From Clavelina lepadiformis (taxonomy: Eukaryota; Chordata; Ascidiacea; Aplousobranchia; Clavelinidae), in the NCBI RefSeq assembly GCF_947623445.1, contig NC_135244.1:18228860-18292859 (forward strand): a DNA stretch of 64,000 nucleotides, given 5' to 3'. The notes below the pieces were generated by a model. It saw nothing but the letters and a program-made list of their open reading frames with translations. It did not search any database and had not been told where the DNA came from. A program made the translations under genes and the position numbers. Positions 10,092 to 58,671 of this stretch are shown in pieces (the first letter of the stretch is position 1; each line of letters starts with the position of its first letter).

Positions 10092-11185
10092 TGTGGCGAA
10101 ATAATATTTCGCACTATTGTTTGTTTGTTTTTCGTGCATCTTCCCACGCTTTTGTTATCTTTAGTTATCAGTTAACTTTTATTCTGTTTGTTATTTCTCT
10201 TGATGATCTGATTTTATTGATTTCGCTTGTCCACTGTTTTTTCACGTTGTTTATACCGCCTCAAGTGTTTCGATGTGGTCCAGTGCAGATTCATACGTGT
10301 CCTGTTTTCGGTTGGTTTCCCGCATGGGCTTCGGGCGGGAGAGATGAGCTGGCGAGAAAAAGGTGGCTTTCATGGCAGTCGTGGTATGGGCGGTTAGGAA
10401 GAGGACCTGTCGTGGATGTTGGTCACTCAGAACTGCCCTGGTTGCTTTATTATATTTTACCATTTTGATTGTAAAACGTGTGCACCGTAAGTCAAGCCCC
10501 AAAAGCGGAGTGGAGTGCTTTTAATCTGATATCGAAATACAATCTCACTACGTTAACCCTATCCTAACCAGGCTCGCGAGTTTACTAAAAAACTAGGTGT
10601 GGCCGACCCCGCACACACATTTTCAATCGTTAATTACTAGAAAACTATACGTCGTAAACTGATCGGATTTTGACAGGTTAGTAGAAAATTCATCTGGCTT
10701 CCTGTATACATCATAATTGTAAAACTAAAGAAAGTGAATTTAGTGTAAATTAAGTATTTCTAAAAGTGACACATTTCTAGAAATTCTTCTTGTTACGCCG
10801 CGTCCCCGCTGTGCGGAAAACCAGCTGACCGCGAGAAGAGAACGAAAGAGAATAGTTAGTCGAGTTATTGGTGCGTAAATGAGTAATACGCTTCAATGCG
10901 GAGAGCAGAGCAAAGCAGAGGAAAATTATGAAAATATCACAATATCTTAAAAATTACAAAATCCAACTTTATCAAACAAACATGGACAGATAGCTGAACA
11001 TTTTTTAGGAAAAGTCACCAAATTTCAAGTTTCTACAGCAAACAATGCAACTGTACGCCACGTTTTGCTATGACAGTGTGCGGGAGAAGCCAAGCCTAGT
11101 TAGAATAGGGTTAAAAGAGGCTTGTTGGCTTTGAGTGGGCCGTGAAAGCGGTGGAGAAGGACCTGGCAATAGAAAATCTGTAACA
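10092..11185 (+). repeat. 5' LTR of the Ty3/gypsy-like fossil, with a nested element
   Basis: The repeat begins TGTGGCGAAATAATATTTCG and ends TCTGTAACA. It is 1094 bases long because a TTAA-flanked miniature element lies inside it; without that it equals the 536-base 3' LTR at 13315-13850. Confidence 0.9.
10553..11114. mobile_element. piggyBac-like miniature element (TTAA-flanked) inside the 5' LTR
   Basis: The ends are TTAA-CCCTATCCTAAC and GTTAGAATAGGG-TTAA, imperfect inverted repeats flanked by TTAA. The 3' LTR has the uninterrupted site (ACG-TTAA-AAGAGG at about 13775), proving a clean insertion of 558 bases after LTR formation. There is no coding capacity. Its end sequence differs from that of the larger host piggyBac-type element, so it belongs to another family. 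Confidence 0.9.
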
Positions 11186-13314
11186 AATTGGCGAGCGCGC
11201 CAGGATCTACCGTCACTCGAGAGATTTCGAGCCTCACTACCCGGATATGGCTTTCAACCTGATGATGACACCACCTCGTTTCAATTCAGGTGATGATCTA
11301 TCCGAGTTTTTGAAAGTTTTTAATTCATATTGTGGCAGCGTTGACGCATCCGACGACGTAAAAAGACACCTTTTTTTGGACACAATCGACCGAGACCTTA
11401 AATGGAAGATCCAGGGGAAGGACAAAAATATCTACGACATATCTTACAAGACGTTGGTTGAGCGAGCTTTTGAAGCAATCAACGGCGCAGAATTCTCGCA
11501 CACATTGCGCTTGGAACTGATCCAACGCGTACAACTGCCTCAGGAAGACGCACGGAATTTCGTCTTCGCGCTGAAAGCCCTCGGCGACCGATGCTACCCC
11601 GAGGATGAAGACAGCCAACTGAAGAACGAACTACTTTATTTATGCCTGATCAAAGGCTTGAGAGACAAGCAATTGGCTAGCAGCATTCCGGCAACTCTCA
11701 GGTACGAACGTAACTTCATGGAAGCGGCCGACGTCATTTTTAAGACTATCCCCCAGGTATGCCTATCTGTTGGAGTGGAATCGATTCAAACCTATTCGGC
11801 GATACCTTCTACTACGGATGTGTCTGCCATCCTAAACAAACTGAAAGATATAGAGCGGGAAACAAAATGGTATCGCGAACGCAATTCTGACGCAATCTCG
11901 GAATTAAGAGGCACCCTGAGGACGGTCAACGATCGAATGAATGCAGCTTTGTGCAATTCTGTATACCGAGATGACAATCAATGCTTGTCAACCAACAACG
12001 CCCGACGCCGCCGCAAGTGTTTTGGATGCGGTTCATTAAGACACCTTGTAAGGGAGTGTCCAAAACGTATTCGAAACCTCGATATTTCTACTCACAGCAA
12101 TTGCAAAGGCCGACGGGCGTCTACGCCAATGAATAATTTAACAGAGGAGACTGCGATTAAATTGGAAAATGTTGTTGTCACTGGACACGAAGAAAGCGCA
12201 GATTTACATCGTTTTGTAACTATAGTTTTCCGAGATACGCCAGTGTGTGCTTTGGTGGATACCGGTGCCAGCGTCTCCCTCATTAAGAAATCATTCTGGG
12301 ATGGGTTGAGCTCTGCCGAAAAAGGTCCCTTGTCAGCCTCCCCGAAGGGTACACGTTTCGTCGGAGCCGGAGGTAGTGATTTATCCATATTGGGTAAAGG
12401 AGAAATAGAAGTTCCTCTGCTAACACAGCCAATCATCCCAAAATGCAATGAAGTTTTCATAACGGATTCTGAGGTTGTTCCAGCTTCCTCCGAAATTCGC
12501 GTGTTGGCCAAGCTCACTAATCACGTTGGCGGAGATGACTTCTCGCCCTCTCCAGTGTTTGTGGAGCGGGATGTTGAACTCAACGCAATTCAGGACAGCA
12601 CTGGAGTTTCTCCGCATCTGCATGAAATAGACGCTCTTCGCGACCGATTGCTGTTAGCAGATCAAGTTACCGATGAGGTTCTCGGTGAACAACGTGCAAA
12701 GATGAAGAGACATCACGACAAGCAATGCCGCGGCAAAGAGATCTCAGTCGGAGACCGTGTCCTCCTGAACAACCCGGCCGTTCCTGTCGATAGATGCCGG
12801 AAATTCCATTTACCCTATAAAGGGCCTTATAAAGTAGTGAGAAAAGTCGGCCAAGTCAACTACCAAGTTGAAGATGACCACGGAAAAAAGCAAACGGTCC
12901 ACTACAATCGTAAGAAGAGGGTGTCCAAGGACGTGAATAGGTTGGAGGAATCTGTCGAATCTCAGGAAGGTAACAACGCTCCCATCCGAGACGAGTCAAG
13001 CCCAATGAAGTGCCATGTGCGGGTTCCAAGGTCAAAGTCGCAGGGGCCACGATCGGCCCCTATTAGTGAAAATAGGACAATAATGGACGCTGTTCCCGAC
13101 TTGGGTACCGAATCGATCAATGATCGACCCAAGCGAACGAGGCAACCGACACGATTTTACCCTGACCACGATCAATCGGTTTGAACACTTTTTAATCATT
13201 TCGCACAGTTTTCGTTTGAATTTTATCTTAGCTTTTATTCCGGTAGCAGTCTCAATTTTTTATATATTATTTTGTCTCGCTGACCCAGACGTAAGAATTT
13301 TAACGTGGGGGGTG

Positions 13315-13850
13315 TGTGGCGAAATAATATTTCGCACTATTGTTTGTTTGTTTTTCGTGCATCTTCCCACGCTTTTGTTATCTTTAGTTATCAGTTAACT
13401 TTTATTCTGTTTGTTATTTCTCTTGATGATCTGATTTTATTGATTTCGCTTGTCCACTGTTTTTTCACGTTGTTTATACCGCCTCAAGTGTTTCGATGTG
13501 GTCCAGTGCAGATTCATGCGTGTCCTGTTTTCGGTTGGTTTCCCGCATGGGCTTCGGGCGGGAGAGATGAGCTGGCGAGAAAAAGGTGGCTTTCATGGCA
13601 GTCGTGGCATGGGCGGTTAGGAAGAGGACCTGTCGTGGATGTTGGTCACTCAGAACTGCCCTGGTTGCTTTATTATATTTTACCATTTTGATTGTAAAAC
13701 GTGTGCACCGTAAGTCAAGCCCCAAAAGCGGAGTGGAGTGCTTTTAATCTGATATCGAAATACAATCTCACTACGTTAAAAGAGGCTTGTTGGCTTTGAG
13801 TGGGCCGTGAAAGCGGTGGAGAAGGACCTGGCAATAGAAAATCTGTAACA
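13315..13850 (+). repeat. 3' LTR of the Ty3/gypsy-like fossil
   Basis: This is a 536-base direct repeat of the 5' LTR, starting TGTGGCG and ending GTAACA, followed by the target duplication GGTT. It serves as the empty-site control for the element nested in the 5' LTR. Confidence 0.9.
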
Positions 13851-15348
13851 GGTTCAACAATCAAATGACGATGGTCAGTTATGTTCCCAAAAAGAATAAA
13901 GCTGTGGTACTATTGAGCACAATGCATCACGATATAAGCATTGACGAAGAAGACCCAAAAAAGAGGCCTGAGATCATCAGGTTTTATAACAAGACAAAGA
14001 TTGGTGTTAACTTGGTTGACCAAATGGTTCAAACATACACTTGCAAACGACAAACCCGCCGATGGCCTCTAGTTCTCTTTTACAATCTGCTCGACATCGC
14101 AGCTCTAAATGCATATACCATATTCAGACAAGTATATCCTGATTATCAGAGTGGACAAGGTTCAAAGCGACGAGGTTTCATAACAGATCTTGCTAACTGC
14201 CTCATTTTGCCCCACATGATGACAAGACAGAAAATTCCTCAACTCCACAGAGCCACAAGAGAGGCTATGGTGAGATGTGGCTTAGCTTTTCGAAGTACAT
14301 CCCTGCAAACAGCAAACACGTTGCAGAAGAGGAAGCGGTGTTCCTTATGTCCACACGCAAAGGATAAGAAAGTTGCAAAATGTTGCTCAAGATGTTGCAG
14401 ACCCGTGTGCCCAGAACACAGCGTGACCATGATCACATGCAACAAATGCAGTGAATGAATCAGGCTATGCGTTGTAATGTGAACTGTTCTGGACTTTTCT
14501 TTCATTTTCTCATCGACTTCTTTATACTGTTTTTCGTCGGTTGTTTCATTAAAATGCAGCAAAAACTCTAGATATGTCATCATAACGCCAATGGAAGAGA
14601 CAAGGAAAGAACAAAAAGAAAAATATTTAAAGTCTTTAAAATAGAATTGCATGTAATAGCAATACGGGTCAAAATGACCCCTGTTATGCATTAGCGTAAG
14701 TTTTTTTGTGTGTGCATTCTAGGGTTAATACATGCAGATGCTAAAGATAACATTGTTATATTCAATCTAAACGCATTGCCTGTCGTGTAACGTATAGTTC
14801 TCACACCTTCATCCGAACTTTATTCAAATGCCAGTCGTTACGTGTTTCGATTTTGCAGTGTGATGTCATAATTACCTCCACATCCTTCATAATTAATTTG
14901 TGATACATTTTAGCAACGCAGTAAAGGTTCAACTATACTAAATGTGGTTGAAAAATTCTTTTTGCGCTAAACTTCCTGACAGTTTTTTTGGTTTAAGGTT
15001 CGCTTTTTTTAGCAGTTGCCCATTACTTTAAGGATCATTCAAAACCTAGTTAATTACTAAAAACGAAATAACGCCTCGGGTTGTAATTAACTACAAACAG
15101 TGTTTTCCATTCACATTGCCAACCTTTAAACAACAGTGTTTCCAACTTCGCATACTTTGAACCTAATGAAATTTGTCACAACGACAACCCCTTTTTGCAG
15201 CATTATAGGCTCTATTGTAGTATAAGAAGTTTCAAGTAATTTGCCTGGAAACACTTTTGATCAATTTATCAGAGCTGCAGACATTTTGCTAGTTGCATAG
15301 TAAGCTAACAGTGTTCCAGGGCAAGTTAACGTTGAATACAATACCAGC

Positions 15349-28689: not shown

Positions 28690-31600
28690 ATGGCTTCAAC
28701 AGAATCTGGTAAGTCGAATTAAATTATATTATATGATTAATTAAGTCTTCTTGCAAGCATGTTCAGATTCGCAACATTTCTCATTTATCAACAAGAACAA
28801 TTTAGGGATAAATTCAAGTATTCGCTATAATAGTTTGTTCAACAACGGCTATATTTTAAGTGAAACGGCTTTTTATTCATACTGTTTCAGGGGATGGCCC
28901 TGTTATTAACATCATAAGAAAAACACGTAAAGACGATGGGACTGTCGAGATAAAACTCGATGAAGAAGCTTTAGCCGAGGTCTTTCAGCATAAAGACGTT
29001 GCCAATCTCCCGATAGTTCTTTATTCAGTTGTAGGACCATACCGAAGTGGAAAGTCGTTTCTTCTTAATTTGTTCCTTCGTTTCAGGAAGCGTAGAACAG
29101 TGAGTTTCTTGTTAAGTAAAACACAAAGAAAATGTTTGGGGCAGAGTAATTATGAACGAAGCGTGAAAGCGTTTAGGTTAGACATGGCTGATTTAGACCA
29201 AAGCACATATAGATTAAAAAACACTTGCTTGGAAATCCTTACAGAACTGCAAACTAATTTGCAATTTCCAATCTTTAGTCTTTGTTACGGTTACAGCACC
29301 CAACTGACGATCTACAGCGTAATCCCCAAGAAGAGTTAGAAAGCACGTTTGCCTATCGAGGAGGAAAGATTGACCGATGTACAGAGGGCATTTTTCTCTT
29401 AAAAACACCATACATAGTTACAACATGCGTTGGCCAAAATGGCGATGGCGATGGCGATGGCGATGGCGATGGCGATGGCGATGGCGATGGCGATGGCGAT
29501 GGCGATGGCGATGGCGATGGCGATGGCGATGGCGATGGCGATGGCGATGGCGATGGCCAAAAGGTCATAAACCATTTAGTTGCACTTTTATATCTTAAAA
29601 TTAAATAATTTGATTCTTAACACAGAATTAACTGTGTTTCATATTCATTTATAAAACCAGAGCGTACACATAAACCTGCTAAAACGAACATTAGTTTCTT
29701 TTGAAAGGTTGCTGTTTTCATAATGGATACACAAGGCATGTTCGATTTCGAATCTTCGGCGAAAAGTATGAGCACGGTGGTGGGATTCAGTTTTCTCATA
29801 TCATCTTATCAATTTTACAACTGCAAAGAAGTTAATTACCAAAGCTTTGACACTATCCAAGTAATTTTTGCTTGTTTTTGCGAATACCGACTGCTGCTGG
29901 TTTAAAGAATTCATAAATGTTTTTATACCTACATACAGTATATCCTATGATATTTTGTAATCTGTGGTATGAGTCTCACAAACTTATACCATACATTTAT
30001 TCAACTGCCTTAAATTCATGATAAGTTATTTTTGTACTTAGCAATTTGCGAATTTCGCCTCAGAAGTAAAGCAATCACAAACAACTTCACCTTTTCAGGT
30101 ACGAGTATATAATGCTTTGAATTAATGAAAGTTTTATTGAACATTCTACAAAGAGTTGGGCAAATTTTTGCAGTCTCTAATGCTTCTTGTACGAGATTGG
30201 ACGACCAAAGATTTCACACATGGTTTGAAAGGTGGAAGACGTTATTTTGACCAACTGCTTGAGAAGTGGTCAAGGGCACACAGGAATATTCGCCATAGCC
30301 TCTTGCAGAGTTTTGATCAACTTGAATGCTTTCTTTTTCCATCTCCGGGAGATACAGTGGAAGCAATGGGGGAGGAAGACACAACTTGTCTCATTAAAGG
30401 TGCCGGGCGTTTTTCTATGTTATTTGTGCAATCTTATAACAATAATAACTTTTCGTACCGATATAATTCTGCTTAGGCCTACTGTATTTGAAAAGCTGTA
30501 TGACTACCTATGAAACCATAAACATTTGTTGTAAACACTGTTTACTAGATATAACTCCAGCATTTTTGAACAAGTGTGATGAGTTCTTCAAGCATCTTTG
30601 CGATCCGAAAAACCTCATTCTTAAAAAGATAGACAATGAAGTGGTGACTTGCTCCGATCTCTTTGAATATGCTAAAGAATATGCAAGAATCATAGAGAAT
30701 GAGGAAGTCGCTCCCATTGAAGGAGTTATTGAAGTAAATTAATCAAACAAGTGAAAAACTTCATATATAAAGTTTTAAAATTATTAAAATTAGTGTATGA
30801 TTTGCAGGGTCGTAAAAGAGCAAAAGTCACGATAGCCATTCGAGAATGCGAAAAAGCTTACAAGAAAGAGATGTTATTAGAAGTAATAGTAATGCAATTA
30901 ACCTAATATTGACTGATGTGTGTTAAAGTGTTTCAAGGCATCGTGAGAGCTATTTCATGAAGCCTTTTTGTAGCACCCTGAACCGAGCAACGCACAGAAC
31001 ATTCATGAAAAAATCAAGAAAAATGCGTACACTTTGTTTTGTCAAAAAACTGAAGAATGCGGGGAAGAGATGATAGAAGACGGAAAGCGGGAACTAGATC
31101 GTTTGATTAAACTTTGTTACGAAGAATTTCTGGTACGCTTAATTCATATCTATGACCAACTTTTATGTTGGGTGGTAATTATACAGCTAAAGCCGTCTTC
31201 ATTTTTTTTGGAATACACCAAATCAGAAATGTATTATAGGACACACTAAAGATGAACGAAATAACGAGTTCCTGCTCCAGCTGTTATAGAGATAACATGG
31301 TAAAACTTTAAGATTGAAATTTGTTAATAAAACGTATGTTTTTGCATAGTTGCTCTTCCGCTGATAACAATTAAGTTATAAGCTATACATTCAATTTAGT
31401 TCAAGAATGATATCTTGCGGCTTCGAAAATTTAGCAATTTTCTTGGTCATTCTGAGTTGTTTTTACAGATGAACTGGGAAGGTGGAGAGGACGAACTACA
31501 AAAAGAGCATGAACTACAGAAAGCGGAAGCATCAAAACGATTTCAAGAAGCCAAGAAGCCAGAAAACGAACAGCTGCTGAAACAATATCAACAGAAATTG

Positions 31601-34154
31601 GACACGGAAATTCAAGAGTTTTATGAATCTGTGCAGGTGAAATATGGTCGTCTAAAAAACAAGTGCATCATTTTATCTCTATCAGTTCTCTTTACGCTTG
31701 CTGAGATGGCATGGTAATAAAGTTTAAGTAAATGTTCATACGAGCAAACTAACCTTCTATACTCCCAGTTTACAGCGGTTTAGTAGGGTATTAAGCAAAT
31801 ATGTGCGAGTACGTGTAAATAGGTTCTTTATACGTTTGGAAGTCTGTTTTGCTTGCTTTGAGCACTTGATCAATAAAGGCATGTTTGTTTTTGAATTTTT
31901 CGTATCTGTGTTTGTTTGTTCATGTACATTTTACAATGAAGTTTCCTTCTAAAGGCTGATGAGGATATTGTCAATGCCTTCTGGTGCTAATAAAGGACAG
32001 TATCTTACTTTCGGTACCGCTGGTAACCTACTTGTGATAATTGTAATTTTACAAAAATAAGTCAACTTGTTGGTTGCTTCTCTACCTTAAACTTGATGTA
32101 ATTGTGATATCAGAATCTTTGTCCTCGGACTGAGGAGAATCGACTAAGATGGCTTCTTTTCGCTCGAACCTCAAATACTGAACTATAGTTTTTGTAAGAG
32201 TTCGCTTAGAGTTTAGACGCGCACAAACTGTAATTGGTTTTAAGAGTTTTGTACCGCACTGCCCAAATTTGGAACTGCTCACCAGACCAACAAATAAGAG
32301 CAAGCAGCCCTGCCTACGGGCTGTACAATGGTAGCACCACTGCTGGAAATCAAGCACGGCTATTGGGAACCATATCGTGCTCAAACCACTCCACTATATA
32401 CTATATGTTCACAATGCGTGCAGCTAAAGTGTCTTTGTACAAACTTCCTTCAATTGGGTTTGTATCGTGTGTATCCCTATTAAAAAATAAAATGGCAAAA
32501 TAAAATCACGAAATAAACTAACACTTGCTAATAGGATATCTTCTGATTTTTTTATCATTCTCAGACTCGTGTGTACGTTCAACTTCTGATGACAGAAAGT
32601 ATTGAATCCTACCAAACCTCTCTAAAATCTGTATGTCACTTTTCTTCTGCATTATATAGAACACAGTAACCAGCGCATTTAGTAATCCGTGCACATTTTG
32701 TTGAAAAGGGCAAACTCTTGAGATCGACTCACTTCCTTCAAAACCAAGACAGTTTGAGCAGTTTGCAAATTGAAGCGCGTCTGAGAGAGAATTTACCACC
32801 ACATCTTTTTAAGCTTTGTCAAAGAGACTTTCTTATAAACAGCATGAGAATATTTGAGGAAATTTTACGAGAAACTGCCAAACATCGAACGATTACCCGT
32901 GTATTGTGTATACTGTTCCCTCCTCTGTTTCCAATACTTTCAGCTGTATTCGGAATGAGCGCTATTACAGACAAGAAAACTGGAAACGATTGCAATGACA
33001 TTGCACACGGTGTACTTCAAACCATCATGTTGCCTCTTATATTAGCTCTTCCAAAAGAAAATCATTTGTCAGAAAATTCTGTTGACAGTTTGCCTCAACT
33101 GTTTGTGAATACCGTTGCATCTCTGAAGAAAAGTACAAAATAACATGGTCATACAAAACGTACTTATTGGTCATTATAATTGGTTCAGTTTAATCGTCAT
33201 AATTTATGCGCTTGTTGTTGTAAGTAAGCAAATATATAAGTTTTATATATTCTGCATGATCCCAATTATTGAGTAGTTCAATCCATACAGGTACCCACAA
33301 ACATTTTTTTGTTCTTATAATTTTACTCGCTATATTTGATACTTTACGCATGCCATCTCAGCAAAGCTTACAGCCTATCTTGTCATGCTTTGTATTGAAA
33401 TCGCAAAAGTTGTGCAATAGGCCTATATCAATTGATTTATTATCCATGGTACAACATTGACTCGAAAGTGTTTGTTTTTTAACAGACTCGAGTCAGAGCG
33501 CAGGTGGTGCTTCGTGAAACAGTTGGAGAGTTTTCGGAGGCTCTAAACCAAGTATGTAGCGACGGTGTTTCATTATTTCAACTGAACGTGTCCATGTAGG
33601 CCAACGTGGGTTCATTAAATCTTGTATTTGTACAGGGAATTCAACTGAAACCATATCAAGCCGTAAACAGCAAAGCTAAAATAGCTGCTATTAAGCAACT
33701 GATGAAAATGGAAAAATCCTTGCCAGATCATATTTTCAAAAAGTATTGTAATGATTTCAAAAAGCAGGCCAAAACGGTGTACACAAGTGTGAAACGAGCT
33801 AATTCGAGAAATCGTACTATTTTTGGAGCCACAGCTGGGACTGTTGGTACAGCTGCATTAGTCGCAGGAGCCGTGGTTGCACCCTTGCTTCCAGCAATCA
33901 TCGCTGCTGAAGTTTCGACGGCCGGTATCATTTCCAGCGCAATTACAGGAGCTGCAACAGCGGGAGGGGTAGTAGGTGGTGTGACATCAGTCGCTACAAA
34001 CGGCAACAAAGAAAGCAAATACAATGTTAAAGTGGCTGCGTTGGCAGTTGGCTTGTTAGGCCGTAATATCCTCTTTTCTGAAAGCGATTTTTCCGATGTT
34101 GATCATCCGTCTCTGTTCCTTTACAATGACAACCTAGATGAAACTTTTGATTAA
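28690..34154 (+). CDS. Atlastin/GBP-like dynamin-superfamily GTPase
   Basis: Core exons: 28690-28708, 28891-29099, 29297-29563, 29708-29860, 30042-30098, 30174-30399, 30549-30733, 30808-30882, 30974-31132 and 31469-31636 (506 residues). They are followed by one of two 3' exon pairs: 33486-33551 + 33636-34154 (total 700 residues) or 32565-32630 + 32709-33143 (total 672). All joins keep frame. G1 is G-P-Y-R-S-G-K-S (55-62), the G2 threonine lies in R-C-T-E-G-I (105), G3 is D-T-Q-G (172-175), and the G4-like R-D is in L-V-R-D-W (240-244), as in atlastins. A helical middle domain follows, then a hydrophobic, Gly/Ala-rich C-terminus that likely binds membrane. Family members reshape ER or act in cell-autonomous defence; which applies is unknown. 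Residues 125-163 are an Asp-Gly repeat. An AATAAA lies at 34492. The donor after 29563 (GTCATA) is the weakest. Confidence 0.85.
29441..29557 (+). repeat. In-frame hexanucleotide repeat (GGCGAT)n coding (Gly-Asp)n
   Basis: The tract is 117 bases of uninterrupted GGCGAT units inside exon 3 of the GTPase gene, encoding Gly followed by 19 Asp-Gly pairs. It begins after V-G-Q-N and ends before Q-K-V-A-V, the strand leading into the G3 motif. In human atlastins this position is a short surface loop (a P-D-G-like turn). The perfect repeat implies recent expansion and probable length variation between individuals. The six-base unit keeps the frame whatever the copy number. Confidence 0.9.
32565..33143 (+). 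CDS. Alternative C-terminal cassette A of the GTPase gene
   Basis: The exons are 32565-32630 (22 codons, starting T-R-V-Y-V-Q) and 32709-33143 (144 codons plus stop). They are paralogous to 33486-33551 (22 codons, starting T-R-V-R-A-Q) and 33636-34154. Both first exons are 66 bases, both are phase 0 at each end, and both are followed by a GTATGT donor. In both second exons the first 35 residues align without a gap and end in L-P-x-H-(L/I)-F-K. Cassette A then has a bulky hydrophobic segment (I-T-R-V-L-C-I-L-F-P-P-L-F, about residues 64-85 of the exon), while cassette B has a long Gly/Ala/Val-rich one. The acceptor before 32709 has a poor pyrimidine tract. No AATAAA or ATTAAA is seen between 33144 and 33485, so cassette A may be rarely used or dead. 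Confidence 0.65.
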
Positions 34155-35550
34155 TTTTGATAAGTATTTTTTCTATTGTAAGCCGCTTGTGTCAATATAC
34201 TTTTATTTTTATTCTGTTGACGCCAAGTGTATAAAAGTTTCCAAACTATCTCCCTTGAAAATGTTGGTTGCCCATGATCTTCAAAAACATTTCATTTTGA
34301 AAACAATAAGTCTTAAAAATATGCAGCACGTTTTCCGCATCAATCTAATTTGAAAAAGTTATGGTCTCGCTTTGACGCCACTGGTTTTGTTTGAAAACTT
34401 GCGTAAAACACAAGTGTCGAATAACTATTTGTCACTTTTGTTCACTTGGTGTCATCCTTAAGCTGGATAAAGACCCTGGCAACAGAACATAAATAAATTA
34501 AACGAGTTTTTCTTTATCAAGTAGCTTCAATTTATTGTGAAACAATCTCATTGTCCGATATCAACGTTAAACTAGTTACCGAATTACTTGATCAACTACT
34601 TATTCAAATCATGAGTTTGGTTATCTATCATGTGTTTTTATAATTAGCCACTTGTTTCCAGAAATTGTTTACATGCTTCATAGTTACTCATTTCATTAAT
34701 CTTAAATAAAGATCTTTGCCCATGCATTTAATAAGTAATCAACTTCACGGCAATTTTTCCGACTTGTATCAAACCATGAAATGTTGGCACCCGTCATTAT
34801 TAGAGCATCCAACGGTTCGAGTTCGCCTGTGGCCCACTGCGACGATTGCGAGATAATTGTCCGATGAAAAGGTGACAGCCTTCGTTTAAACATTCATACT
34901 TTTCGATCTTAAATTTAAAATCTGTATGATAGTGACGTCAACCTATTTGTCTAAAAAGGGAACTTGGGCCAAAGTAATTATTCACTGATTTTGTACAGTT
35001 TGGTATTTTTTTCCTTCTAAATCTTTAAGCACTACTTCCCTCATGATTACCAGGTCGCTCAGCGTAATAAACAAGTGTTTTACAATGGCCCAAAGCTATA
35101 GTTGCAACGGTCGGTTGACTCGAATTGCCTTTAAAATGTCATGAATTTTGAAAAATCGCTCGATGCTTATAGGGGTCAAGTGTTTTCGGCCGTTTGTTGT
35201 TTTAAGCTTTTGTACATGCGCATTCCTACTACGCATCTTCCATGAAACCAAGGTCAAAAATTTAGCCCCTCCAAATGACTTCTAAGTTATGTTTTTGATT
35301 TATAAATACCCCTTACAAAAGAGAAGAGTTTGCTATCATTGCAAAAAAAAACCGTAAAACGCTTTGCAAGGTGTTTAAAGTGATGTTTTCTTCCATTTGA
35401 ATGTAATTTGAAACTTCAATTTAACTCATTCCAATCCAAGTTAATCCATTTGAAAGTAATTTCCATACGAAACTTTAGCTTTTACCGAAACATTTTTGTA
35501 TGATCGCTGCTGTTTTTTGATACACATCGGTAAATAGTATACGCATGAAC
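34155..35550. other. Intergenic region after the GTPase gene
   Basis: This stretch holds the likely 3' UTR of the GTPase gene, with AATAAA at 34492. Otherwise no gene, RNA or repeat is recognised. Confidence 0.5.
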
Positions 35551-45245: not shown

Positions 45246-47421
45246 TTAACCCATATCAGCACATGCGTTGACATTTTGTCAACATCGATTTTTTGTGTGA
45301 CATTGCTCTCGTCCCTTATGCACTAGCTCAGCAACATCCAATGACGAAGGAGAACTTCTGAGTAGCTTACTGCTGTAGCGATTTCAAAACGTTAAATTGT
45401 TTCCACAATGAGTTATTTGCGTTTTAACTTAATCGGCACATCAGTTGACAAAATGTCAATAATCAGAAACAATAGGAGTTTGGAATTTAAAGCCACTACA
45501 CAGTAGCTAGCTATTATCACAAAGTGATAACCGGGGACTTACAGGAAAGTTGCACGTGTATTTAGTGAATCACTGTCTGACTAGAAGGAGTTGGATTGCC
45601 AGTTGATATAACTCAGAAGAAAAATACTGTCTAAGCAGTTGTGTCGGAAACGTTTGCCTTAGCTCTAACTAGCTCTTACAAGATAGCCTACTTTACATGA
45701 AATACTAACTATTTGTAAATGAAAGGTTGTTTCGGTTAATTACAGTAAGGTGTAAATTTATTGAGGAACAGACAGAGAAGATTTTCATTTCAAGAGGCCC
45801 TAAGACAACTGCAAATAACTTCTGATGATGTTGATAGCGACTCTAATGCTGAGGCTACAAGTAGTAGTGAATGTGAGTCCATACCAGATGTTGATGAACT
45901 GCCTTTGGAAGAGGAGGAACTGTCCGATATAGATGTCTTTGAGGAAGAAATTGAAGATGACGAGACTGGTAGTGATGCAGATCAAGAATCTAATGATGGT
46001 TCCTTAGGATGAAGATCTAGTACCAATAACAGCTGGCAATGCAACCTATTATGCAAATACGTTTCCAGGCAGGCTCAGAAGAAGAAATATATTGATGCAA
46101 CAGCTTCGGATTGATGCTGCTTCCTGAACTTGAAGTGGATGCCTTCAAATTATTTTATCGGCCTGAAATTATACTTCAGATAGTACGTGAGACGAACAGA
46201 AAAGCAAGAGACGTGTGACACGAATGTAAGCTGTTGCCTAATTCTGTACACAAAAACTTCACGATTGAAGAAGTTGTGGCAGGTCTTGCAACTATGATAC
46301 GTGCTGGCTTGGACAGAGATAACTTCACCGATTTACGTCGATTGTGGGATCCTCTTGATAGTAGGCCATTTTATAGAGTGGTTATGGCACTAAATCGATT
46401 CAAATTTCTGCTACGATGCATGCGTTTTGATAACTATCGCAATAGACCAGAAAGAGAAAGGAACGACAGGTTAGCTGCTATTCGAGAGGTATGGGTAGCA
46501 TTCAACAGTAATCTGCGCAACGTCTACATTCCTAAGGAAGCATTGACTGTGGATGAACAACTGGTCGGATATCGAGGCAAAATTCCTGGAAGAACATAGC
46601 CTACATGCCATCGAAACCAAGGAAATATGGTGTAAAGTTCTTTTGGCTGTGTGAAGCCACATCAGGTTTTGCTCTAAATGGCATTAGGCCTATTTATTCC
46701 GGAAGAGAAGCCGACTCGGCTCCTCACAGAAATCTTGCAAATGATATAGTGATGAACCTGTGTTCCGTTTACTTTTGTACTGGTCGTGACATATACGTTG
46801 ACAGATATTTTACATCTCATGGTCTGGTTCGCAATCTTTTGCTTCAAAATTTTACATTGGTAGGAACAGTAGCCTAATGGCTAATCGCCGTGAAGTTCCA
46901 TCGCAGCTCAAATCAGCAAGGGGAAGAGAGGTGGAAAGTACTGAAGCGTTGTATGACCATTTGAACAACATTCTGCTATTGTCATATGTACCAAAACGAA
47001 ACAGGAATGTCCTCATGATGTCTACTTCACACTCTTCTGTTTCCATCACTGACTCTCACAGGAAACCTACAGTTATCATGGATTATAACAAGCATAAAGG
47101 TGGAGTTGAGTGGAATGCTGAACAATTTGTTGTAGTGCTCCACGTTTCTTCGTTTTTGTGTTTGAAATATACGTGGCAAAACTTCGCTTGTTAAGATTTC
47201 TTTGCGTTTTATCTGAGAGCTAGTAAGCTAAAACTATGTCCTGGGTAGGAAGCAGACCTCCCAATTAGGTCTCAAGATCAAATCATCTAAAATAACAACT
47301 TCACTTTGAGACCAGCGCATTTGTATCGAAAAACACAAGGAAATGCCATGTTGACAATTTGTCAACATCTGTGCCGTTTAAGCTACCTAAAATCCCTGTG
47401 CTGAATGCTGATAAGGGTTAA
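45246..47421 (+). mobile_element. piggyBac-type DNA transposon, decayed but nearly full length
   Basis: The element is flanked by TTAA at 45246-45249 and 47418-47421, with inverted ends TTAACCCATATCAGCA and TGCTGATAAGGGTTAA. Subterminal TTGACAnnnTGTCAACAT palindromes lie at about 45270 and 47350. The interior holds a broken transposase gene. The family differs from the piggyBac-type element at 9579 in its ends and its protein. Confidence 0.85.
45761..47194 (+). pseudogene. piggyBac transposase, frame-broken
   Basis: The open pieces are 45761-46012 (acidic N-terminal domain rich in E and D, common in this family), 46234-46599, 46605-46877 and 46877-47194. Motifs include N-R-F-K-F-L-L-R-C-M-R-F-D-N, then L-T-V-D-E-Q-L-V-G-Y-R-G (first catalytic D), I-Y-V-D-R-Y-F-T-S (second D), and V-I-M-D-Y-N-K-H-K-G-G-V-E (third D region, with E where D is usual at the end). 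Breaks lie near 46012, 46600 and 46875, and the C-terminal cysteine finger is missing. Inactive. Confidence 0.85.
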
Positions 47422-47490: not shown

Positions 47491-52124
<4,634 letters not shown>

Positions 52125-56268: not shown

Positions 56269-56802
56269 CTACTTCTTCCAGCAGTTGTTTTCGTAATCCC
56301 ACATTGATGCATAACCAGTGATTGGGTTGGCACGGAACTGGATTTGCTTTTTAATAACTTCGTGTGCCCATTCTGGATTTGTGCAGGATTCCGGATAGGG
56401 CTGAAGGAGCTGTGTGTGAAGGAAATAATGCAGCCACAAAGAAAATGCAACCACCAGACTGACCACTCCAAGCACACTTTTCCAGTCATCTTTCTCTCGG
56501 CACATGTCAGCCATGGACATACTAAAATACATATTGTAGAGATCCATTTGTTCTTCAGCGCTTAGACTTTTCCAATCTCCTTTCTCTTTTTCCTTTAAGG
56601 TTTTCAGTTCTCCTTCAAATCCAATGGTGCGAGGAAACACCGGTAGTGGTGTTATCAGACTTTCATGAAAGTCCATGTTAATATTGGGATCTTCTCCAAC
56701 ACGAGGTGGATGGTAGCTGTAAATTCCATTAACTGCAGTGACATGAAGAGGACGTCGAAGTGCAACGCGATAAAAAGCAACTCGCAATAGACTTGATGCC
56801 AT
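56269..56802 (-). CDS. COX4: Cytochrome c oxidase subunit 4, mitochondrial
   Basis: This is an intronless coding exon of 177 residues on the - strand. It has a basic, hydroxylated presequence (M-A-S-S-L-L-R-V-A-F-Y-R-V-A-L-R-R), a soluble matrix region with K-E-K-E-K-G-D-W-K-S-L-S, one membrane span (about 110-128), and the diagnostic C-terminal block P-I-T-G-Y-A-S-M-W-D-Y and W-K-K. It is a nuclear-encoded structural subunit of complex IV in the inner mitochondrial membrane. The ATG at 56802 was chosen because it starts the targeting peptide. A CTTTTTGCAG acceptor lies 46 bases upstream, so the mRNA has a 5' UTR exon or receives a spliced leader. It is intact and of usual length. Confidence 0.93.
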   Translation of the reverse strand: MASSLLRVAFYRVALRRPLHVTAVNGIYSYHPPRVGEDPNINMDFHESLITPLPVFPRTIGFEGELKTLKEKEKGDWKSLSAEEQMDLYNMYFSMSMADMCREKDDWKSVLGVVSLVVAFSLWLHYFLHTQLLQPYPESCTNPEWAHEVIKKQIQFRANPITGYASMWDYENNCWKK

Positions 56803-58671
56803 ACTTGCTGATCTGTGTTCTATGCCTGTATGCCCAGCAAGCTGCAAAAAGTAGGCTAAATGTAAGAATGTCGAAAATTTTCAGCATAAAATAGCTAGGA
56901 TAAAGTTTGCGAGAATTACCAGATCATACTTAAATAAATTGCTTTACTCTTATGCACAAAAAAATCACTGCGTAGAACTTTTAAGATAGGCTTCACGGAG
57001 AAGGAACCATTAAGAAAACGACCTTCACACCTCAAGAATAGCTAATTATAAACTAGATGAGAGAATAGAATACAGCAAGCCAAAAATTTTAAAATTTACA
57101 AAAATACAAGTCAAAACCCAACGATGACGCACAAAAAAGAGCAAAATTGTACATTTTCAATTACAGAACAAATATTTTGTTGACAATGACGTAATTTTAA
57201 AGAAAATCTAAAACGTAATTTAAAGTTTTAAACTTCTTGACACTGCTTACTGTTTCAGATAACAGGAAAGGTTTCTCAATGTTGTGTCAATTTCCATCCA
57301 AATTTTACACACAAAATGTTTTATAATGCAAGGTGTTTTAAGTAGGTTCTTTATCAAAAGTGCGTCTAATATTTTATGAAGTTGGTATATTTAAAGATTG
57401 TGCAAAATAGTTACTTATTTAACGGTATCAATGCACTATGCAGTCTATATGCGCTTCTACAGTAAACAATTTTTATCACTTACTGGCGTAAAAGCGCTTG
57501 AACGCCACTTTAAAATTTAGTGCTTTGTTTTTATAATAAAGCAATAAATTTTAAATTATTTATAGAAAGTAATTACGACAGAGCAAATTTTAAATAATGC
57601 TCGCTACAAGCACTCTAACTTGCCTCAACTTCACCAGCATTATAAGCCTTGCCATAGCACATCTACACAAAACAAAACTTATACTGTGGCACCTGGCACC
57701 CTCGGATTTGTTTGTAGAGATCAGCAGTCATTGCGCCACGTTACAATGAAAATGGGACATGTTATAGTTAAACGCGAGATGGTATTTTTGCATAAGTGTT
57801 TCAAACTTAATCGTACATCTATAATATGCTGATGAAGTTGAAATCCTTACGCAAACAAGTAAAAAATAGGTGAATTTTTTACCCCTTGAAATTGTACTCC
57901 CTGTTGGGAACCTATGCCATGGGCATATCTATAAACTGATAAACACAACTGCAAAGTATGGCAGTATTCAACCAGACATCGGCGGTCAAACAACCAGATT
58001 TTCTCTGTTTGTTTATTATAAATTGGCGAGAAGAAAAAAAGTTCAACATGCATGTTGATGAAACTCTTGCCTGCAGCTGCCACCCTTTCCACTATGGCCA
58101 GCTGAATAGTACGGCAGTGTTCAACATGAAATCACACACGTAAAGATGCAAATTTTGAATGAAATTTGCCGATTCCGCTTATGACGTTAGACAGTAACCT
58201 AAACAGTGCAGTAATTTTGACGTCATAATTTGATAAACAATGCCAATGAAAAGTGTCTATCACCAGTATACAATGTTTGTGTTATGTGTGCAGAAACAGA
58301 TTACATTACAATTTGAGTGGCATGGGTGATGGCTCTTTCAGGAAAATGCATCACGAACAGTTTGCACTGCACAGTCACACCCAGTTGCATGCTGCAAAAT
58401 TTAAAAAACAAATTATTTTTCAGTTTTTCTTCCTCAATATCATCAGCAGCTCACATTATTTTACTTGTCAGTTGATGGCAAGAGATGTGAAATACAAATT
58501 AATGAAAGTGACAATGATGTCAACCTTGGTCTAATGGCCTAACCCAATTATAAATGATACCATTGTGTTTGTTGTAGTTTTAAATAGTATCATGTGTTTG
58601 GTTTGCAGAGCGTTAGACTTATATATAAAAGCAAAACAACTTTGAATTTCATAACCAGACCAGATTTGAAA
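56803..58671. other. Divergent intergenic region between COX4 and SARS1
   Basis: No gene is convincing in these 1.9 kb, which should carry the promoters of both housekeeping genes. The acceptor-like sites CTTTTTGCAG (before COX4, - strand) and TTTGCAG (58608, before SARS1) suggest 5' UTR introns or trans-splice sites. Confidence 0.45.

Follow-up and report, generated by a model that had tools for sequence, protein, structure and literature searches.

Two diverged terminal exon pairs behind one atlastin-like GTPase core in the ascidian Clavelina lepadiformis: a candidate gene with alternative hydrophobic tails

Introduction

In the genome of the ascidian Clavelina lepadiformis, a GTPase gene is followed by two related pairs of exons, either of which could provide the C-terminus of the protein, and the locus thus raises the question of whether one GTPase core is served by both pairs or whether one of them is a leftover of a duplication. 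A previous sequence-only reading had seen here mutually exclusive terminal exons that swap the membrane-contact part of a GTPase, and had also suspected that the first pair (cassette A) could be a decaying duplicate of the second (cassette B). In this study the window, i.e. the whole stretch of 64,000 nucleotides that was analysed (C5:18228860-18292859 of assembly GCF_947623445.1), was compared with the host genome, which comprises 209 Mb in 95 contigs. Positions without a contig name are those of the window.

Elsewhere in the window, a long ORF at 11184-13184 (666 aa between stops) has a CCHC-like knuckle and a protease-like motif (DTGA) and looks retrotransposon-like by eye, and two ORFs at 13838-14458 and 46802-47194 resemble pieces of piggyBac-type transposases. 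A cytochrome c oxidase subunit 4-like ORF (56269-56880, minus strand) and a sugar-transporter-like exon (49746-50171, plus strand) are what we take to be parts of ordinary-looking animal genes.

Gene Model and GTPase Core

The GTPase gene was modelled on the plus strand by inspection and homology, beginning with an ATG at 28690 and running through ten exons to 31636, after which the model enters either of two terminal modules. The shared part consists of:

28690..28708, plus strand: exon 1 with the start ATG, placed by inspection (ATG, phase, GTAAGT donor) without a confirmed homologous exon
28891..29099, plus strand: exon 2, P-loop G1 motif (GPYRSGKS)
29297..29563, plus strand: exon 3, containing an in-frame (GD)19 run from the hexamer array at 29439-29557
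29708..29860, plus strand: exon 4, G3 motif DTQG
30042..30098, plus strand: exon 5
30174..30399, plus strand: exon 6, RD guanine-cap motif (LVRDW)
30549..30733, plus strand: exon 7, end of the GTPase domain
30808..30882, plus strand: exon 8, helical stalk
30974..31132, plus strand: exon 9, helical stalk
31469..31636, plus strand: exon 10, last shared exon and branch point of the two tails

The core contains a PF02263 GTPase domain (Pfam, E=8.8e-34), and its closest solved structures are atlastins (atlastin-3, E=4.1e-48), with GBP5 matching weakly (E=1.1e-4). As a weak second domain, exon 10 matches the end of the three-helix bundle of human atlastins. The translation carries GPYRSGKS, DTQG and LVRDW, as in a GBP-type GTPase domain of the atlastin/GBP superfamily; these correspond to the motifs G1 (GxxxxGKS), G3 (DTQG) and RD, respectively. 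The array within exon 3 is a perfect ATGGCG hexamer repeat of 19.8 copies, and the (Gly-Asp)19 run for which it codes falls within the GTPase domain, where TPYIVTT precedes it and the DTQG strand follows. This run was not seen in the exons of the paralogs P1 and P3 (see below) that align at that place, and the array is possibly length-polymorphic.

Two Terminal Modules in Register With One Core

Downstream of exon 10 the following features were placed:

32565..32630, plus strand: first exon of cassette A (A1), 66 nt, phase 0/0, TRVYVQLLMTESIESYQTSLKS, a homologue of B1 that also resembles the 66-nt exon of P1
32709..33143, plus strand: terminal exon of cassette A (A2), 144 aa plus stop, with a helical part and one hydrophobic span (residues 61-87)
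33231..33236, plus strand: AATATA, a putative poly(A)-signal variant by consensus match only
33486..33551, plus strand: first exon of cassette B (B1), 66 nt, phase 0/0, TRVRAQVVLRETVGEFSEALNQ
33636..34154, plus strand: terminal exon of cassette B (B2), 172 aa plus stop, consisting of a helical part plus a hydrophobic stretch rich in Gly/Ala (62-103), the family-type tail

The two-exon module was confirmed to be present twice behind the atlastin-like core, spanning 32565-33143 in A and 33486-34154 in B, each copy having its own stop and a first exon of 66 nt in phase 0. Both A1 and B1 begin with T-R-V, are preceded by AG and are followed by GTATGT, and the introns inside the modules measure 78 nt (A) and 84 nt (B), while an intron of 1849 nt results when A is skipped. 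It also held that either cassette is in register with the one GTPase core and gives an open protein, with predicted products of 700 aa for core plus B and 672 aa for core plus A; the isoforms end in -KSTK and -ETFD, with no CaaX. Not only A1-A2 and B1-B2, but also A1-B2 and A1-B1-B2 are in frame, the latter two being open as far as the normal stop, so that more than two products are allowed and mutual exclusivity is not implied by the sequence.

A Family of Paralogs With One Exon-Pair Design

A genome search with the core returned at least 92 exon-level matches at E<=0.001, clustered on several contigs, nine of which are the exons of the window gene itself. The best of these matches is an intronless ORF (C7:12756595, L016) of 562 aa, counted from the first listed start, a TTG. 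In its protein the bundle is immediately followed by a paired hydrophobic hairpin, after which comes a further tail, as in a canonical atlastin, and because the C7 gene has this layout the window gene is taken to be a divergent paralog rather than the atlastin ortholog. The name "atlastin" is loose for it, since the gene with the canonical anchor lies on C7 and the window gene belongs to a large divergent family.

Tails of the B type were found at four places on C9 (P1, P2, P3 and P3b), at one on C1 and at one in the window, and two further copies of the tail on C9 are inverted, broken and split between frames. At base level, the tail exon is preceded by a 66-nt exon in phase 0 both in P1 (IRVNTEIVLKEVLEEYTAGLKK) and in C1 (DDIEARKTYVNIINGFAAKLNE), and in P3 and P3b the same 22 positions are seen in the translations. 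The unit that is doubled in the window is therefore a family exon pair, and since the paralogs on C9 and C1 have the 66-nt exon before the tail, B represents the family design and A the addition. The intron before the 66-nt exon is roughly 200 nt long in P1 as well as in C1 and roughly 350 nt in P3, compared with 1849 nt in the window; judged from this longer intron, A looks to have been added in the window gene. B has the features of the local tail family, and A shares with it the 66-nt exon, the related helical part and the span, with the Gly-rich stretch missing.

Behind P3, the module P3b forms a second set of stalk, 22-residue and tail exons; a search for GTPase exons detected none there, and the reading frame changes within one of the stalk exons. 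A single tail each was seen in the genes that were looked at on C4 (two) and C1 (one). In the family gene cluster at C9:12385001-12425000 (L011-L014), the P1 and P2 tails are 99% identical and about 12.2 kb apart. The genes of the C4 cluster (L052, L054) end in shorter Gly-rich hydrophobic tails, and by eye they appear to have repeated helical stalk units.

Homology of the Cassettes and Constraint on Cassette A

By BLASTP the products of A and B match with E=1e-10 over 84 gapless residues, of which 19 are identical and 47 positive. The score of the A1/B1 block was reached by none of 20000 shuffles, which also holds for the first 35 residues of A2/B2 (0/20000), and that of the next 27 residues by one (1/20000). 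The alignment of the second exons had previously been described as gapless over 35 residues; it is gapless, but the match extends to 62 residues. At the level of DNA, identity is 43% over the 84 aligned codons; by codon position it is 46% at the first, 49% at the second and 33% at the third.

The protein similarity was compared with a neutral simulation, in which the DNA of B was mutated without selection to the observed A/B DNA identity (n=5000). The observed BLOSUM62 score of A with B is 101, as against -16 +/- 20 in the simulation (0/5000 reach it), and only 0.9% of the neutral copies had no stop in the 84 codons. Furthermore, all 166 codons of A are open (p=2e-4 from intronic composition). 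With a codon model trained on 1843 codons from the core and paralog exons, A and B being left out, A scores 0.009 in codon usage, as compared with -0.198 +/- 0.058 for intronic segments (0/3000). Of the six frames, frame 0 scores best when A is taken as a whole; the same is true of residues 63-144 of A2 (codon usage p=0.005, open frame p=0.003), but not of A1 alone or of the helical part of A2 alone.

We conclude from these sequence comparisons that A was retained as protein long after the duplication; its present-day use is a separate matter. As a main reading, a decaying duplicate was rejected: A shows protein-level constraint above the neutral expectation, open codons and coding-type codon usage, in contrast to the visibly broken copies elsewhere in the family.

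The same data bear on how much of A would be in use. With both 66-nt exons in phase 0 and every combination in frame, A1 could be the useful part, serving as an extra or alternative exon in B-type mRNAs (A1-B1-B2 or A1-B2) and adding or swapping 22 stalk residues, while A2 would be used rarely or never. However, A2 itself looks constrained, both in residues 1-62, which align to B2 without gaps, and in residues 63-144 with their coding composition and open frame, so that a role restricted to A1 appears quite improbable.

Splice and Polyadenylation Signals

Splice sites were scored with a position-weight model for acceptors and donors, a small model derived from the 11 constitutive sites of the gene, with leave-one-out scoring of those acceptors. 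The A2 acceptor (5.34) scores above five of the 11 constitutive acceptors, among them that of B2 (3.62), lies between the 95% (4.37) and 99% (5.69) quantiles of 119 decoys and is the best of the five AGs scored in its intron; the A1 acceptor scores 6.62. A weak acceptor of cassette A, as proposed by the sequence-only reading, was thus rejected, the A2 acceptor being ordinary, and the weak site is instead the A1 donor (TCT/GTATGT). At -1.89 it falls short of every one of the 11 constitutive donors, which range from 0.35 to 9.81, and also of the median (-1.02) of 157 decoys. Since A1 and B1 share the intronic GTATGT, the difference in score between them lies in the exonic TCT of A1.

The absence of AATAAA and ATTAAA between A and B was correctly noted before: from the stop of A to B1, the AATATA at 33231 is the sole match among the eleven hexamers tested. 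Within 600 nt 3' of B there are several poly(A)-like hexamers, including AATATA at 34194 and AATAAA at 34492. Among the other family tails, P1, P3 and P3b have AATAAA or ATTAAA within 342 nt of the stop, and B, with one at +337, falls just short of this. Five of the eight other tails lack both hexamers over this distance, so that their absence after A is weak evidence.

These signals have to be weighed for the scenario in which A was functional until recently, but is now neither spliced nor polyadenylated and persists as a silent, still-open relic. Such a state would fit the weak A1 donor, the missing canonical hexamer before B and a genome without a close second copy of A2, and very recent disuse may have taken place, as in sequence it looks like use. 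By contrast, the 166 codons of A contain neither stop nor frameshift, whereas family duplicates that look decayed are visibly broken, as seen from the inverted orphan tails on C9 and the frame change in the stalk exon of P3b, and neither the ordinary A2 acceptor nor a hexamer lacking in most other tails as well sets A apart. We therefore regard a silent relic as unlikely.

Properties and Register of the Tails

Hydrophobic regions were defined by a Kyte-Doolittle mean above 1.6 over 19 residues, a definition under which the longer regions merge several stretches. As had been proposed, each of the two tails, A2 and B2, carries a hydrophobic span, and in the terminal exon the first residue of the span lies between 60 and 63 in all six tails whose exon start is defined (A2 61-87, B2 62-103, P1 61-116, P3b 61-89, P3 63-98, C1 60-100). 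In the two C4 tails the span starts at 66 and 64, but these are counted from an ORF end rather than from an exon start, so that the register is arbitrary. The span of P3b is as short as that of A2, and the contrast in length is therefore not unique to A. Glycines and GxxxG motifs number 4 and 0 in A2, 14 and 3 in B2, 21 and 8 in P1, and 16 and 4 in P3b, respectively; a comparison with shuffles gives p=0.065 for B2 and 0/2000 for P1.

Downstream of the span, A2 resembles some of the paralogs (IMLPLILALP vs GLLPLKVALP). For the end of A2, the similarity gave p=0.001 with P3b, 0.011 with P1, 0.18 with B2, 0.21 with P3 and 0.23 with C1, and for a shorter block, compared with three paralogs only, p=0.002 with P3b, 0.0105 with P1 and 0.076 with P3, i.e. 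p<0.05 for two of five tails with the longer block and two of three with the shorter one. Complete divergence of the copies after the shared helix, as stated earlier, was rejected: the gapless match runs over 62 residues, the hydrophobic span is in register, with a shared start, and faint remnants of the family C-terminus are still present in A. It is suggestive from these alignments that A2 is the same tail with the glycine-rich parts lost.

More distant comparisons are weak. By tblastn, A2 matches P3b with E=0.064, P1 with E=0.15 and exon 9 of its own gene with E=0.027; the helical part of A2 thus matches its own exon 9 better than any paralog tail, and generic stalk-helix similarity adds noise. 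No domain above the curated cut-off was found in the tails by Pfam search, and a PDB search with the tail profile gave no significant match (best E=0.15). A single-sequence structure model of B2 was unusable (mean pLDDT 41).

Age and Origin of the Duplication

A resembles each of the five other cassettes compared (z 4.4-9.3), and over 84 residues it is more similar to B (101) than to four paralogs (17-60, z 4.4-6.9). Over the same length B scores almost as high with C1 (90) and P1 (84) as with A. The maximum-likelihood tree places B with C1 (support 61), and a grouping of A with B is not rejected, the log-likelihood difference between A+B and B+C1 being 0.42. Judged from these comparisons the duplication is old and would have occurred either in the window gene or before the paralogs split. 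A genome search with A2, which excludes close copies only, gave no other relative, the next matches having E=1.64 and, for B2 itself, 6.88, so that relatives as distant as B2 would be missed. Around A and B, a 22-nt direct repeat (31440 and 33164, 77% identity) was found together with three weak inverted repeats. The two cassettes are not linked by a direct repeat, which fits an old event.

As the trees do not decide on the grouping of A with B, and the family has moved or partial 3' modules (the inverted orphan tails, and P3b behind P3), A could also be the 3' end of another family gene that arrived by unequal crossing-over and lies outside this transcription unit. However, A lies between exon 10 and B1 in the same orientation and in a fitting phase, the interval from exon 10 to A gave no core match at E<0.01, and A scores higher with B than with the four paralogs compared. 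A foreign origin of this kind is very improbable in our view.

A Model for Alternative Terminal Exons

The reading that we favour, and consider moderately probable from the sequence, is a gene with alternative terminal exons. The last two exons, i.e. a 22-residue exon that is probably helical and a terminal exon with a hydrophobic, probably membrane-inserting segment, would have been duplicated in tandem long ago, and both copies would have stayed coding. In one splice form, exon 10 would join A1-A2 and the transcript would be cleaved and polyadenylated before B, giving an isoform of 672 aa with one short hydrophobic span of about 27 residues; in the other, exon 10 would join B1-B2, skipping A, and an isoform of 700 aa with a longer Gly/Ala-rich hydrophobic stretch would result. 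If both mRNAs exist and the tails are inserted into membranes, a single GTPase motor would be coupled to two different membrane contacts or target membranes, and the swap may change its location or activity.

A bolder extension of this model is that duplication of 3' modules behind one core is the way in which the family varies its membrane anchors, with the P3 locus on C9, where a complete gene is followed by a further stalk and tail module, as a possible parallel, and that the two anchors in the window differ in kind, A being a short glycine-poor single span and B a long Gly-rich hairpin, so that splicing would switch topology or target membrane. We regard this extension as tentative and rather doubtful, and slightly less probable than we did at first, because the span of P3b is by hydropathy as short as that of A.

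If both tails are expressed, the gene would represent a natural swap experiment, in which two hydrophobic tails that have long been separate are attached to the same dynamin-type GTPase core. It would also illustrate how new membrane specificities can be added in an expanded GTPase family without duplication of the motor domain.

Comparison With Known Systems

The window gene shares the PF02263 domain with the vertebrate guanylate-binding proteins, but a search of core and tails for the GBP C-terminal Pfam domain found none up to E=1. Splice variants of GBP5 exist, and its C-terminus decides on membrane contact via a CaaX prenyl signal (PMC12418754), unlike the window isoforms with their -KSTK and -ETFD ends. 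In atlastins proper the bundle is directly followed by two transmembrane segments and an amphipathic helix, a layout that the window gene does not have: after the weak bundle match, the 66-nt exon and about 60 residues precede the hydrophobic region. With the canonical atlastin on C7 the window protein shares a GTPase domain of about 34% identity and a weakly recognisable bundle end in exon 10, but instead of a hairpin directly after the bundle it has additional residues and a hydrophobic tail that is either short or rich in Gly/Ala.

The earlier statement that no swappable atlastin tail has been described is not supported: according to a 2025 review, alternative splicing of the C-terminal extension in human ATL1 and ATL2 has functional consequences, and in ATL2 the choice sets fusion activity, ATL2-1 being autoinhibited and the neuronal ATL2-2 more active (PMC12312388). 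A swappable C-terminus is thus already known in the superfamily. Among the listed titles and abstract openings of open-licence PMC articles, no report was found of doubled terminal exons in the atlastin/GBP family, nor of a doubled exon pair that exchanges the membrane segment. Human ATL1-1/1-2 and ATL2-1/2-2/2-3 resemble the window gene in combining one GTPase core with alternative C-termini, and their variable part lies C-terminal to the transmembrane segments and the amphipathic helix (PMC12312388). In the window gene, a divergent paralog, the hydrophobic segment and the preceding 22-residue exon are by contrast themselves part of the variable module, and if both tails are expressed, the spliced C-termini seen in human atlastins would be carried beyond a regulatory extension to include the membrane segment itself.
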